29,239 nt of DNA from a virus: positions 1-29,239 of IMG/VR virus record IMGVR_UViG_3300031758_000414, one strand, 5' to 3'. Below, piece by piece: positions 10,320-26,238 of the stretch; within the stretch, counting starts at the first letter, position 1, and the number at the start of each line of letters is the position of its first letter. Below the pieces are notes generated by a model that worked only from the letters and a program-made list of their open reading frames with translations, did no database searches and was not told where the DNA came from. Made by a program: the position numbers and the translations under genes.

Positions 10320-11573
10320 ATGAGACACGGTTCACTATTTTCAGGAATTGGAGGTTTTGACCTCGCATCCGAATGGATGGGGTGGGAAAATGTATTTCAT
10401 TGCGAATGGAATCCCTTCGGACAACGAGTGCTTCAACACTACTGGCCTAATGCCGAATTATTCGACGATATAACAAAAACAAATTTTACAAAATACTATG
10501 GAACAATTGACCTTATTTCAGGTGGATTCCCTTGTCAACCCTATTCAGCAAGTGGAAAGCGACTCGGCAAAGAAGACGAACGCCATCTATGGCCTGAAAT
10601 GCTTAGAGCAATACGAGAGATTGCCCCGCGTTACGTCGTGGGCGAAAATGTTCGCGGGATTACTAATTGGAACGGGGGAATGGTATTCGACGAGGTGTGT
10701 GCTGACTTGGAAAATCTTGGGTATCAAGTCGCGCCCTTTATTATTCCTGCGTGCTCGGTCAATGCCGTGCACCAACGAGAGCGAGTTTGGTTTATTGCCT
10801 ACTCCGACCGTGATAGATGGTGTCAAGACAGGCGACATGACAGGTTCGGCAAAAATGTTAATGGGTGCAACAATGAGGAGTTCGGGGCAACAAATACAAA
10901 GGACGCTATCGGATGCGGTACAAATGGAGGTGCTCAAGACGAACCCTGCTCTTGCGCTAGAATTGGCGTCAAAACAATTTGTGAAAAGGACAAAACTACC
11001 GACTCAAGAGGAATTTGTCGAATGGATAAAAACATTGGGAACAAAAAAGGAATTAGCGACGACATTGAACCTCAAATTGACAACAGTGGAGCACTGGTAT
11101 CGAACGGACAAGGTAGGATTCAGTCACCCATCTATACAGGATTGGGAAGCAATCAAGACTCACTATCCTGTGCCGTTGGAATTAGACACGAAAATGACAC
11201 ACCAAGAATCAATCGAATGGCAAGGAATGTTGCCGACACCGAGCGCATTCGATTGCAAGAATGGAATGAAACCGCAAACGTATCTAGCGAGAAAAAAGAG
11301 ACACCAAGAAAAGGGGGTCAATCTTCAATACGCCCTGAAGCAAATTGCAGCCGATATTTCGCACGAACAAACTGGCAAGATTTCCCAACTCAATCCCCGA
11401 TTTGTGGCCGAAATGATGGGATTCCCGCCGAATTGGACGGAATTACCATTTCTAAATGGCGAACCGAAAGCATAAAGGCATATGGCAACGCAATTGTGCC
11501 ACAAGTAGTGTATCAAATCTTTAAATCAATTCAAGAATATGAAAATCTATCGAAACAAAGACCAGTCATTTGA
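10320..11573 (+). CDS. DNA cytosine-5 methyltransferase (417 aa)
   Basis: Motif I is LFSGIGGFDLA (residues 6-16), motif IV is GGFPCQPYS with catalytic Cys72, motif VI is GENVRG (108-113), motif VIII is QRERVWFIA (152-160) and motif X is YGNAIVPQV near the C-terminus. It would methylate cytosine in a short target to protect phage DNA from host restriction. The stretch between motif VIII and X (about 160-370), where target recognition should lie, is rich in Asn, Gly, Asp and Cys and looks poorly ordered. It is also the part that fully encodes another protein in a second frame. The enzyme may therefore have an unusual or degenerate recognition domain. It starts directly after the DnaB stop. Confidence 0.9.
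   Translation: MRHGSLFSGIGGFDLASEWMGWENVFHCEWNPFGQRVLQHYWPNAELFDDITKTNFTKYYGTIDLISGGFPCQPYSASGKRLGKEDERHLWPEMLRAIREIAPRYVVGENVRGITNWNGGMVFDEVCADLENLGYQVAPFIIPACSVNAVHQRERVWFIAYSDRDRWCQDRRHDRFGKNVNGCNNEEFGATNTKDAIGCGTNGGAQDEPCSCARIGVKTICEKDKTTDSRGICRMDKNIGNKKGISDDIEPQIDNSGALVSNGQGRIQSPIYTGLGSNQDSLSCAVGIRHENDTPRINRMARNVADTERIRLQEWNETANVSSEKKETPRKGGQSSIRPEANCSRYFARTNWQDFPTQSPICGRNDGIPAELDGITISKWRTESIKAYGNAIVPQVVYQIFKSIQEYENLSKQRPVI
10498..11475 (+). CDS. Overprinted protein inside the methyltransferase gene (325 aa)
   Basis: A 325-codon frame lies wholly inside the methyltransferase gene, shifted by +1, from ATG 10498 to the stop ending at 11475. It has normal-looking protein content: MEQLTLFQVDSLVNPIQQVE at the start, VGLLPTPT-like FGLLPTPTVIDGVKTGD in the middle, an HTH-like LATTLNLKLTTVEHWYRTDK, then GMLPTPSAFDCKNG, and FVAEMMGFPPNWTELPF at the end. 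From memory, the LFQxDSLVNP, LLPTPT and MMGFPxxW motifs recur in methylase-associated phage proteins, which argues that this frame is expressed. It might supply target recognition or partner the enzyme. No methyltransferase catalytic motif is present in it. The function is unknown. Confidence 0.65.
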   Translation: MEQLTLFQVDSLVNPIQQVESDSAKKTNAIYGLKCLEQYERLPRVTSWAKMFAGLLIGTGEWYSTRCVLTWKILGIKSRPLLFLRARSMPCTNESEFGLLPTPTVIDGVKTGDMTGSAKMLMGATMRSSGQQIQRTLSDAVQMEVLKTNPALALELASKQFVKRTKLPTQEEFVEWIKTLGTKKELATTLNLKLTTVEHWYRTDKVGFSHPSIQDWEAIKTHYPVPLELDTKMTHQESIEWQGMLPTPSAFDCKNGMKPQTYLARKKRHQEKGVNLQYALKQIAADISHEQTGKISQLNPRFVAEMMGFPPNWTELPFLNGEPKA

Positions 11574-22802: not shown

Positions 22803-22975
22803 TAGAACGCTAGATAAATGAACAATTTGACAAATAGGTATAGCATCGCAATACCTGTCGAATAACGAACGGATTTATACATCACTTTTCGCCAACCAAC
22901 AAGGCGACGACTCTTTTGTTTGGTGCGCAATCCAACCTTGAGGAATGCTAGTGATGGGGTGATATAGTTTTGCAT
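22802..22975 (-). CDS. Small basic membrane protein between tail genes (57 aa)
   Basis: The ATG at 22975 overlaps the stop of the large tail gene (TAATG), and its TAA overlaps the tape measure start (TAATG). It encodes MQNYITPSLAFLKVGLRTKQ, a basic stretch KSRRLVGWRKVMYKSVRY and a C-terminal hydrophobic helix (IAMLYLFVKLFIYLAF). The double coupling makes it a good gene despite its size. It could be a tape-measure partner or a membrane-active protein. The family is not recognised. Confidence 0.65.
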   Translation of the reverse strand: MQNYITPSLAFLKVGLRTKQKSRRLVGWRKVMYKSVRYSTGIAMLYLFVKLFIYLAF

Positions 22976-25900
22976 TATGCCGTTTTGCTTTGTTGATATT
23001 GAATTGAACCGATAAAAAAGAACGCCTCAGGATAAGTCCCTCCCGTCGTTGTAATCATAATGCGATGCTCGTCGGTGTTGGTCGTTGTATCAATTGACAA
23101 CGCGAAAGTGTATGCCCCGATTGAACCGATTGTGTTGAGTGTGGTGATTGCACTGGCGTAAGCAATGCCTCCAATCTTCTCAAGAGTAAAGTGATGGAGC
23201 GATGTCTCACTTGTTCCCGCTACATCTTTAATCGTCAGGTTGAATAAGCAACTCCAAAGGGTTTCGTCAGGCAATTCAATGCGTTGATTTGAAACACCCT
23301 CAACGAACAACTCCCAACTTTGACCCGATGCCGTTACGGTCGGATATCGATGCAAGGCGAATTGACCGAATTGCGCCCAACCATACTCGGTGGCCGATGG
23401 GTTACCCGCACGATACCCACCGCCGACGTGCAACCCTGCCAAGTTGATATACACATTCTTGCCGAGTAGGTTGCTACCATTGGCGTATTTTGTCAACGTC
23501 AAATCTTGACCCACCGCAAGAGTGTTGCCATTGTTCGGGTTGATTTGTATCTTGGTGCCATTAACAACCGAACTAGGCAATGTTATTTCGGTTGAGGTTA
23601 TTGGATTACTATTTTGAATCAATGAATTTCGGAATTGACCTCCATTATTGAACGCCCAACAAACGCCATTGAGTTCGTCCCAATAGTACCCATATCGCGA
23701 ACAACAATCTTCAGTCGGCTCAACAGGGTCACCATCGGCATTTTCAAAGTTGACCTCACCATTGGTCGAGACGGTGACTGGTGTCGATGAGCAATCGTTC
23801 ACATAATCAACGAACTTAATCAGTTTGACTTTTGTGCTTTCGGACAATCCGACTTTGTAGTCACTAATTTCAAGAATCCTCCAATAAGAATCTTGAATCC
23901 ATATCTTGTCGGCAAATGAAAATGTCAATATATCATTGAGGTCAAGCGCAAAAAACGCCTCCATAATTCGACCATATGGCGAATACAAGTCGTTCATATA
24001 ATCGCGCCAATACAAATTGAATAAATTGTTTACTGGGTTGCCTTGGATTGTCGATGAATGGGGTGGGATTTCAGGTGCCCAATTCAAATCAAAATCGGAT
24101 ACATTAGGATAAGTGTTGCTATAATGATTCAAAACAGGTACATTGGTCGATGTTGTTGCGCTACCACTGACCTCATTAAATAGATTGATGCTGATTTGCC
24201 CTGCGTTAAATAAGACCCTTGGACCGGGGGCAACATATTCAAGCGAATCATTGTAAAAGCATGGAATCGGTGTCCCATAGTTTGGAATTAATGCCGATGG
24301 TGTGCTTCGCGTCACAAGTTGAATTTGTTGATTCCCCTTTGCAAAATCGCTAGGCGGTGTTGATGGGTTGACTGTGTACCCCTCAACCTGATAGTCACCA
24401 TATACGCGATTCAAGTTTTTATAGACCTTGGAATATGCGTCCTCACCCGCCGAATAAGTGAATTGGAATTTCGCCTTTTGAATGTCGACTGTGCTAGTGA
24501 TTGAGATGTCTTTTGAGATATCGAGTTTATCCGTCCAATCAATTGCATCGCCAGTACCCAAGTAGTTGTTTTGCGGTATGATTGCGATTTGATTCGGCAC
24601 GATGCGACTTGGAACGATTGCACAATTGTGCATTTTAATGATATCGTTGACCAAATCAATTTGACGCATATCGGGTGCGTTTTGTTTGTAGTCAATCGTT
24701 TGACCAATGGTCACATCAACGGCGTTGAGTTCGATGTATGATGACGTGAACGACCCTGTTCCAAAAACGCCATACACATCGACAACTCCATATTCAAACA
24801 AATCAACAGGCGTCCAAGAGTTTGCCTGACTTCCCACGGCGATTGCCTGATTGCTTTGAAATTCAAAAAATACCTCGTCACCAAAATCTAGGTCAAGGGT
24901 GAAAGTTTGGTCAAATGTGCCGATTGATGTAATTGCCCCACTTTGTGTCAAGGCAAAGTTGCTATATATATTGTCGACTACTGACCCATTCTTAAATACC
25001 TTGAGGCGCATTACTATATAGTTCGTCGGATAAACCCAAACAGTGGCAAAGTTTTGAAATACATGAAAAGTAAAAGTGCCAGTTGCCGAGGCCGTATATA
25101 CACCTGTCACAGGGTCAAAGTCGTTGTTGTTGTCAAACATCTCAGTCATATTCACATAACTTGAGTTATCATTGAACCCATCATCTATCGCAAACGATGT
25201 TGTTGGATATGCCCGAAAAAAATACTGATTGCTTCCACCCTGATTGATGAGTTGAGGAGTATTAGTGAATGGCATCCAATAGTCTTCAATGATGTTCTCA
25301 AGCGATGTAGCGACTAACTCGAATCCCGCTTCAGCGATGATATTCTTGAGTAAAAACCACCAACTAACGGCAGGCGTCAGGTCGGCAGGATATACTGGGT
25401 TGCTTGCGTTCCTTATTGGGCGCGAATCCGCCTCAACTCCATTGCTCCATAGTTGCGCCCTATCACATAGCGTCCATATTCGGTCAGCGTTTTCAGTCGT
25501 TACATTCGCATAATTAACGACCTCATTCAAGTCATTAAGGGCAACGATATCACTCAACTTTTTTTCACCAATTGCACGAAACAAGTCAGGCGTCTCGGCA
25601 TAAAATGCGACCTGCAAATCGACGTGCCTATCGAGTTGCTTGAACACTTTCATCAAACGCAAGTGACCTCGAATGATGGGCAAGGTATTCACTAGAATCT
25701 CGGCGGGAATCTTTGTGTTGAATAGTGTGTCGGTTGTATCAGCACTTAAATAGTTGACGTTAGCAATTGCCCCGAACACTTGTTGATTGCGCTCAGTCAA
25801 TGGGATGCGGAACTCTCGCGAATAACTACCCACCGCCTTGAATTCGCTGATGTCATTGAATGACCAGTTTTGCGATATTGACTCATTCTCATATAGGTCG

Positions 25901-26238
25901 ACATAAAATTGCTCATTGTTGCCAAGCGTGAACGTGAATGAGTCAGCACCTGTGATTGAGAATGGTATTGATGGGACATATTCAAGGGTGCCTGAATAAG
26001 GAACTAGCGAACAACTTAATGACCCACCAACGATTTGAACAGTGTCAAGGAATACGCCGTTGTCATATACATCAACGAACCCTTGCTCATCAATCAATTG
26101 TTGATAGACCGAACAGGGCAACATACCTACCAACTCGCTTACATACATTTTTTGTAGCGTTTCATTGAGCGAATACATCACGCTCGTATATGTCGTTGAG
26201 TCGTTCTTGACGACGACAAGTTGTACCTCGTTTATCAT
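22975..26238 (-). CDS. Large tail-tip/baseplate-like structural protein (1087 aa)
   Basis: The N-terminal 250 residues contain SFTFTLGNNEQFYVDLYENE, NWSFNDISEFKAVGSYSREF, RIPLTERNQQVFGAIANVNY and LPIIRGHLRLMKVFKQLDRH. I recognise these from a widespread large structural protein of Bacteroidota phages next to the tape measure, probably part of the tail tip. Middle parts are beta-rich, with DVTIGQTIDYKQNAPDMRQI and ISDYKVGLSESTKVKLIKFV. The C-terminal 200 residues contain beta-rich repeats resembling a receptor-binding or carbohydrate-binding domain. No enzyme motif is visible. It overlaps both neighbours. Confidence 0.75.
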   Translation of the reverse strand: MINEVQLVVVKNDSTTYTSVMYSLNETLQKMYVSELVGMLPCSVYQQLIDEQGFVDVYDNGVFLDTVQIVGGSLSCSLVPYSGTLEYVPSIPFSITGADSFTFTLGNNEQFYVDLYENESISQNWSFNDISEFKAVGSYSREFRIPLTERNQQVFGAIANVNYLSADTTDTLFNTKIPAEILVNTLPIIRGHLRLMKVFKQLDRHVDLQVAFYAETPDLFRAIGEKKLSDIVALNDLNEVVNYANVTTENADRIWTLCDRAQLWSNGVEADSRPIRNASNPVYPADLTPAVSWWFLLKNIIAEAGFELVATSLENIIEDYWMPFTNTPQLINQGGSNQYFFRAYPTTSFAIDDGFNDNSSYVNMTEMFDNNNDFDPVTGVYTASATGTFTFHVFQNFATVWVYPTNYIVMRLKVFKNGSVVDNIYSNFALTQSGAITSIGTFDQTFTLDLDFGDEVFFEFQSNQAIAVGSQANSWTPVDLFEYGVVDVYGVFGTGSFTSSYIELNAVDVTIGQTIDYKQNAPDMRQIDLVNDIIKMHNCAIVPSRIVPNQIAIIPQNNYLGTGDAIDWTDKLDISKDISITSTVDIQKAKFQFTYSAGEDAYSKVYKNLNRVYGDYQVEGYTVNPSTPPSDFAKGNQQIQLVTRSTPSALIPNYGTPIPCFYNDSLEYVAPGPRVLFNAGQISINLFNEVSGSATTSTNVPVLNHYSNTYPNVSDFDLNWAPEIPPHSSTIQGNPVNNLFNLYWRDYMNDLYSPYGRIMEAFFALDLNDILTFSFADKIWIQDSYWRILEISDYKVGLSESTKVKLIKFVDYVNDCSSTPVTVSTNGEVNFENADGDPVEPTEDCCSRYGYYWDELNGVCWAFNNGGQFRNSLIQNSNPITSTEITLPSSVVNGTKIQINPNNGNTLAVGQDLTLTKYANGSNLLGKNVYINLAGLHVGGGYRAGNPSATEYGWAQFGQFALHRYPTVTASGQSWELFVEGVSNQRIELPDETLWSCLFNLTIKDVAGTSETSLHHFTLEKIGGIAYASAITTLNTIGSIGAYTFALSIDTTTNTDEHRIMITTTGGTYPEAFFFIGSIQYQQSKTA

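Follow-up and report, generated by a model that had tools for sequence, protein, structure and literature searches.

Positions 10320-11573 of the virus record IMGVR_UViG_3300031758_000414 from IMG/VR, which was analyzed over its full length of 29,239 nucleotides (the window in the following), carry on the plus strand the gene for a predicted C5-cytosine DNA methyltransferase of 417 residues, here called alpha. Nested within it in the +1 frame is a second gene on the same strand (10498-11475) for a protein of 325 residues, beta, which we propose to be the target-recognition and motif IX subunit of the same enzyme. A first-pass annotation of the window had pointed out this second frame of 978 bases, or 325 codons from ATG to stop, in agreement with the list of open reading frames and the translation, and the three motifs that it singled out (LFQVDSLVNP, FGLLPTPT and MMGFPPNW) are all present in beta. 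Along alpha, LFSGIGGF (10335-10358), which corresponds to motif I of the family, is followed by motif IV with the catalytic Pro-Cys (GGFPCQP, 10521-10541), already inside the overlap, by motif VI (GENV, 10641-10652) and by motif VIII (QRERVWF, 10773-10793), directly after which selection switches frame. Residues 167-381 (10818-11462) are a weakly conserved reading of the beta-coding stretch, predicted with low confidence, and motif X (SIKAYGNAIVPQVV, 11469-11510) lies at and past the end of beta. Beta begins with 98 residues laid over alpha motifs IV-VIII (10498-10791), a part that is conserved in the beta alignment and coincides with a drop of the alpha third-position rate and with stop avoidance. 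A first cassette starts with LLPTPTVID (10792-10818) and a second one with MLPTPSAFD (11227-11253); a large cassette (10918-11217, beta residues 141-240) contains a helix-turn-helix-like stretch (LATTLNLKLTTVEHWYR, 11053-11103) with weak matches to phrog_8008 (E=0.0013) and YdaS. Profile alignments place motif IX at 11386-11436 in the beta frame (QLNPRFVAEMMGFPPNW), and the beta C-terminus consists of QLNPRFVAEMMGFPPNWTELPF plus seven residues.

Motifs and Pfam point at a C5-cytosine DNA methyltransferase in the case of alpha. Residues 1-405 match PF00145 (E=3.1e-42), and the protein also matches phrog_363 (E=4.7e-73) and TIGR00675 (E=5.1e-38). Motifs I, IV (PCQ), VI (ENV), VIII and X are all present, and PCQ, ENV and GNA..P are invariant among 28 aligned alphas. 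Within the alpha chain no motif IX was found, and the alpha reading of the bases in question aligns with the conventional profile at an unrelated place only (E=0.23). AlphaFold2 predicts residues 1-166 with confidence except for three loops and becomes confident again at the motif X helix, while the predicted local distance difference test score (pLDDT) stays below 50 for residues 167-381. The predicted fold corresponds to that of M.HhaI along some 164 columns (E=7.7e-14), and no small domain is seen in the model. The description of alpha as rich in Asn, Gly and Cys and disordered-looking past its catalytic part, given in the first-pass annotation, also holds for the composition: these three residues make up 24% of residues 165-370 vs 18% of residues 1-160, and hydrophobic residues 29% vs 45%.

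The length of the nested frame was compared with 20,000 shuffles in which synonymous codons were permuted and both the alpha protein and its codon usage were preserved. None reached 325 codons from ATG in the +1 frame (mean 103, maximum 311) and none contained an open run as long as the 333 codons of the actual frame (maximum 314), so that the earlier statement that such a run is unlikely by chance is borne out. Over alpha codons 59-165, the catalytic part, not one +1 stop is seen vs 4.0 expected, and over codons 165-385 again none vs 3.9 expected; the shuffles were stop-free in 0.5% and 0.4% of cases, respectively. In 31 representative loci the beta frame has no stops before the junction vs 126 expected, a zero that is partly due to selection because the representatives were chosen intact.

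The nested arrangement is not restricted to the window. A search of viral contigs with beta as the query gave 483 relatives, from which 79 distinct loci, including the window's own sequence, were kept. In a first set of 87 loci (79 viral, the window's own and seven phage records) beta is found in the +1 frame of alpha in every case, and a stop interrupts one of the two frames in four (L008, L069, L070 and L078). From bacterial and archaeal genomes 66 loci were fetched, mostly from Bacteroidota, with others from Bacillota, from Parcubacteria and Peregrinibacteria metagenome-assembled genomes and from Burkholderiales; 57 of the 62 evaluable ones have both frames intact in the +1 arrangement, the five others being L124, L135, L141, L142 and L147. 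A further selection was made with the alpha catalytic part alone as the query and comprised the best 80 of at least 600 stretches from viral loci, many on contigs shared with the beta search and one on the window's own contig. In 76 of these 80, alpha reads through to motif X without interruption and beta is open, with motif IX in the +1 frame. A stop in beta occurs in two (L225 and L226, the contigs of L069 and L070) and a frame break in one (L262), and another contig ends early (L242); interruptions of the second frame among homologues, which according to the first-pass annotation should be frequent if its reading were wrong, are thus confined to three of 80 loci. Where either frame is interrupted (L008, L069, L070, L078 and L262), the cause may be pseudogene formation, sequencing error or variation. 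Eleven more records (L154-L164) stem from E. coli Kagunavirus, from Pseudomonas, Vibrio, Salmonella, Klebsiella, Mycobacterium and Synechococcus phages and from a Leptospira plasmid. A motif IX signal is present in the +1 frame of alpha in ten of the 11, some scores being low (minimum 13 bits). In phage Ochi17 (L157, 758-1517) the alpha frame is broken, each part having been annotated as a 'DNA methylase' gene of its own, and motif IX lies +1 to the second part only; Nitzel (L196), a close relative of Ochi17, has an intact alpha. Plasmid records searched with one beta as the query gave six matches only.

As a control we used 30 methyltransferase loci from the same genomes, namely 15 conventional ones with motif IX in their own frame, eight nested and seven unclassified. 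The +1 frame of codons 58-165 contains a mean of 7.4 stops (1-13) in the 15 conventional methyltransferases, in which the longest +1 run does not exceed 132 codons, vs a mean of 0.4 in the eight nested loci (none in six, one in L191 and two in the broken L188). Could the second open reading frame nevertheless be a chance by-product of methyltransferase codon usage? The shuffles and the conventional enzymes, which lack such a frame, speak against this, and it is contradicted by the conservation of the nesting and by the codon-position test described below, so that we regard it as virtually impossible: beta is a real gene.

For the codon-position test and for counts of amino acid identity and ATG codons, a set of 135 loci was assembled from the first 87 minus nine, namely the window copy L001 and the broken or truncated L004, L005, L008, L043, L069, L070, L074 and L078, plus the 57 intact genome loci. 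Records L154-L164 were left out of the codon-position and cassette counts, and for genome loci the beta start was set at a fixed offset in the codon-position and identity tests. Differences were counted in 48 pairs of loci aligned as DNA with 65-92% identity, which are disjoint and not phylogenetically independent. The rates at alpha positions 1/2/3 are 0.166/0.096/0.448 before the overlap and 0.119/0.080/0.426 after it. Over motifs IV-VIII they amount to 0.170/0.093/0.300, in the middle of the overlap to 0.380/0.172/0.144 and in the motif IX part to 0.215/0.053/0.117. In the middle, position 1 exceeds position 3 in all 48 pairs (45/48 and 46/47 in random pairings) and in the motif IX part in 35 of 43, vs 1/44 before the overlap, 3/45 over motifs IV-VIII and 0/46 after it. 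Alpha codon position 1 is beta codon position 3, and therefore the wobble changes over to beta directly behind motif VIII and returns to alpha after motif IX. Over the catalytic part the alpha third-position rate drops to 0.300, from 0.448 before the overlap, which indicates constraint on the N-terminal part of beta, too. The stronger selection on the second frame that the first-pass annotation had suspected for residues 160-370 is therefore found. Its concept of overprinting holds for part of the gene: the first approximately 98 codons of beta are indeed laid over the catalytic domain, while the rest is not a new gene on top of an old target-recognition domain. Alpha is open through the middle in nearly all loci, and one might take this to mean that its middle is a functional domain itself and that both frames are equally selected. 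Such equality is highly improbable, as amino acid identity over this stretch in all aligned pairs is 0.56 for alpha vs 0.77 for beta, an alpha-like pattern appears in none of the 48 disjoint pairs (3/48 and 1/47 in two random pairings) and pLDDT is below 50. Alpha residues 167-381 rather behave as a by-product reading of the beta cassettes.

The question of what beta contributes was approached via its C-terminus. A profile of 120 distinct beta C-termini, compared with one of 16 conventional methyltransferases, aligns at columns 285-300, where the conventional motif IX occupies 284-296 (E=7.6e-4). On M.HhaI the alpha profile ends at residue 181, whereas a profile of alpha continued into beta runs through motif IX to residue 294, with GKTSQLNPRFVAEMMGFP paired with GKTRKLHPRECARVMGYP. 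Residues 2-233 of beta furthermore match phrog_1008, which is labelled 'DNA methyltransferase' (E=6.2e-23). Beta gave a single Pfam match, far under the cut-off, and none in NCBIfam at E<=0.1. A number of results weigh against motif IX and a small domain in beta. The hhalign probability of the C-terminal alignment is 25% despite its E-value, and the motif IX part follows the alpha pattern in eight of the 43 pairs. On M.HaeIII the joined profile ends at residue 160 and the profile of alpha reaches residue 322, and PF00145 extends to profile position 294 in just two of five proteins joined from alpha and beta. Nothing was retrieved with the beta profile from sequences of the PDB up to E<=10. AlphaFold2 gave a poor model for beta by itself (mean pLDDT 60, predicted template modelling score 0.38), and a fold search with this model gave no match at E<=0.001; such a fold is what half a domain might show and counts as evidence neither way. 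On balance, the profiles suggest that alpha holds motifs I-VIII and X and that beta holds motif IX.

Beta might instead be a real protein with a separate job, for instance a DNA-binding regulator or an anti-restriction protein, that is merely encoded inside a methyltransferase gene. The weak helix-turn-helix matches at beta residues 169-210 and the confidence of AlphaFold2 at about residues 141-240 only would fit. The cassette concerned, however, is of a type found in only ten of 137 betas, the motif IX at the end of beta is not found in alpha, and the beta-frame proteins of the mycobacteriophages Zimmer and Scottish include motif X as well, all of which makes a separate job quite unlikely. 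The suggestion of the first-pass annotation that the second product works together with the methyltransferase and may confer specificity has thus become plausible, given motif IX in beta and the target-recognition position of its cassettes.

Betas contain units that start with LLPTP or similar; these follow the conserved N-terminal part and precede motif IX, at the place where the target-recognition domain lies in conventional enzymes. Counted in 137 betas (the set of 135 loci plus L004 and L005), their number ranges from zero to seven: none in three betas, one in 21, two in 43, three in 36, four in 23, five in eight, six in two and seven in one. The median length of a cassette is 40 residues (365 units, each of at least 20 residues), and the last LPTP begins a median of 42 residues ahead of motif IX (134 betas). 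Grouped by single linkage, the units fall into 64 families, a single one of which takes in 196 of them. Smaller families reappear in different positions and combinations; family 1, for instance, comprises 18 units from 15 loci. Target-recognition domains have been described to contain a TL motif 10-50 residues before motif IX, as stated in the relevant part of PMC2413257. In its strict form, P(STCA)PT(ILV)(TASV), it occurs in a single one of the 137 betas, which might count against recognition by beta, but conventional controls rarely contain it either (1/20). With A allowed at the fifth place it is present in 85/137 betas and in 2/20 controls, so that neither form discriminates. Because of this rarity in betas and controls alike, the cassettes are considered putative recognition units by virtue of position and variability and not by motif.

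How is beta translated? An ATG lies in the open beta frame upstream of the PCQ codon of alpha in 131 of 135 loci; four loci from Bacillota (L127, L128, L138 and L153) have only GTG or TTG there. In 25 loci inspected by eye, with the sequences lying inside alpha and no chance level computed, a Shine-Dalgarno-like sequence precedes a beta-frame ATG by 6-10 nucleotides in seven, including AGGAGG at 7 nucleotides (L151), AGGAG at 10 (L141), GGAG at 6 (K1G, K1ind2 and fTaEco01) and two more. Less favorable for a separate start are six loci with a match at 11-13 nucleotides only, 12 loci without any at an ATG and the window itself, where none was noticed by eye before beta. Genes without a Shine-Dalgarno sequence are usual in Bacteroidota, and the window would be no exception if its host, as its relatives suggest, belonged to this phylum. 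Another way to make the protein would be a ribosome that shifts from the alpha to the beta frame after motif VIII, yielding one fused chain and leaving the start of beta unused. The linear position of the beta cassettes and motif IX between motifs VIII and X is in keeping with such a shift, and a single +1 step at GCC-T produces a stop-free chain in 51 of 88 sequences, some stepping elsewhere. A frameshift is nevertheless quite unlikely, as the beta frame is open and constrained for approximately 98 codons ahead of the junction (third-position rate 0.300 vs 0.448), with the 126 expected stops missing in the representatives chosen as intact. In-frame ATGs are nearly universal, Shine-Dalgarno-like sequences precede some of them, and a second shift, back to motif X, would be unaccounted for. 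Separate translation of beta in the window phage is what we infer.

Taken together, the locus very probably encodes one C5 DNA methyltransferase that is made as two proteins from two frames and most likely forms a heterodimer. Alpha would supply the large catalytic domain with motifs I-VIII, then a long disordered stretch and finally motif X. Beta, read in the +1 frame from an ATG of its own close to motif IV, would supply the small domain with target-recognition cassettes followed by motif IX. Upon assembly of the two, the small domain may close over the DNA held by alpha and choose the target sequence, and residues 167-381 of alpha would form a loop that stays open only to keep motif X in frame with the catalytic domain.

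The history of this arrangement can be approached by comparison of catalytic domains. In a tree of 43 nested and 19 conventional enzymes, some of the latter without a recognized motif IX pattern, one branch (100/98) separates nested from conventional catalytic domains, the bootstrap being unsettled. Both trees calculated here are midpoint-drawn, and their conventional members come only from genomes that also hold nested enzymes and not from phages. Alpha ends after motif VIII in the mycobacteriophages Zimmer and Scottish, where cassettes, motif IX and motif X are all encoded by the gene in the +1 frame. This layout resembles that of M.AquI and is found in the mycobacteriophage methylases L195 (920-1922), L197 (1039-2521) and L278-L287; among 11 Zimmer-like contigs it was recognized by pattern in nine and by eye in a tenth (L286), and L288 does not show it. 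Four of these AquI-like split forms fall on the nested side of the tree (100/100), grouped beside the nested L146 (98/83). Two frame changes, one after motif VIII and one between motifs IX and X, would link the single chain, the AquI-like pair and the nested form, in one order or another. Going further, one may think of a widespread and ancient class of two-frame methyltransferases in phages and several bacterial phyla, with specificity residing on a hidden-frame subunit built of swappable recognition cassettes of approximately 40 residues. Each swap would have to be a multiple of three and keep both frames open, recombination within the overprinted gene would be the way in which specificity evolves, and a single phage could have several specificities at once. 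We put this forward tentatively, the odds being somewhat against it as a whole.

Alpha is preceded by a gene for a DnaB-like helicase (phrog_19, E=1.5e-99) and followed by a NinG gene (phrog_171, E=7.6e-64), and the portal and virion structural genes of the window lie on the strand opposite to alpha. Because a PHROGs scan of 20 open reading frames, a part of all those in the window, named no restriction endonuclease, the methyltransferase is probably an orphan enzyme that shields the phage DNA against restriction. On the minus strand, the open reading frame at 2356-2871 weakly matches an RNA polymerase sigma factor family (phrog_1740, E=1.2e-9), and one of 1087 residues at 22975-26238 is without any PHROG match at E<=0.001.

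The nested frame has been listed before in single cases, as 'g62 internal gene' in Paenibacillus phage Lily, as 'Mte8-like protein' in K1G (Kagunavirus) and, in Bloom, as another 'DNA cytosine methyltransferase'. Both frames are listed in five of 19 nested records from phages and plasmids, alpha only in 12 and beta only in two, the latter being Synechococcus phage Ssp-JY39 (L163, 556-1671) and Pseudomonas phage PMG1 (L156, 976-1737). The five records with both frames call beta hypothetical, Mte8-like or a second methyltransferase, and none identifies it as the missing half of this enzyme. Because annotation often keeps one frame, the proposed recognition half is often absent from databases, and specificity could then not be predicted from alpha. 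If the proposed split is correct, the annotation 'DNA cytosine methyltransferase' stands in many cases for half an enzyme, whose partner in the +1 frame has not been listed. The locus would also be a clear case of a long prokaryotic overlapping gene pair with a mechanical reason, the frame switch being a domain boundary, and the intermediate forms would suggest how the overlap arose. Searches of the open-licence PMC literature gave no account of the family as a split enzyme with a hidden-frame recognition subunit, which is not proof of absence; new here are the breadth of the nested form, the shuffling of cassettes in the hidden frame and the forms from mycobacteriophages in which motif X, too, belongs to the beta frame.

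Several known systems share features with the pair described here, and M.EcoHK31I and M.AquI are established precedents for C5 enzymes of two polypeptides. Multispecific C5 methyltransferases of SPbeta-type Bacillus phages are single chains with tandem recognition units of approximately 40 residues before motif IX. Beta likewise has tandem exchangeable units of about 40 residues; in the window, however, the cassettes belong to a second protein that is read from the +1 frame, and the strict TL motif, rare in conventional controls as well, is confined to one of 137 betas. Domain swaps in multispecific C5 methyltransferases are mentioned in a passage of PMC2413257. For ShiLan-type mycobacteriophage methylases, the relevant part of PMC11855218 describes an in-frame insertion that reads as disordered and an HNH gene out of frame; the words cytosine, subunit and motif IX are absent from its main text. 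As judged from this description, a phage methylase gene with a disordered in-frame stretch and a protein-like reading in another frame is common to both cases, but the hidden frame there is read as a homing endonuclease. In M.EcoHK31I the gene for the small subunit is also located in an alternative frame of that for the large one. This enzyme recognizes YGGCCR and consists of two polypeptides, the larger with motifs I-VIII and X as well as the predicted target-recognition domain and the smaller with motif IX, as given in the section of PMC3404938 concerned. Compared by description only, the distribution of motifs over a large and a small chain is the same as that proposed for the window. Differences concern the target-recognition domain, predicted in the large subunit of M.EcoHK31I, whereas in the window the middle of alpha looks disordered and the variable cassettes are in beta. 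Because alpha residues 167-381 are weakly conserved and have a pLDDT below 50, we do not file the pair as a strict member of the M.EcoHK31I type. M.AquI (CYCGRG), in the same section of PMC3404938, again has two polypeptides, the larger with motifs I-VIII as in the window, but carries motif X together with motif IX on the small subunit, while motif X of the window is in alpha. Going by that description, it is the mycobacteriophages Zimmer and Scottish that match the M.AquI layout.

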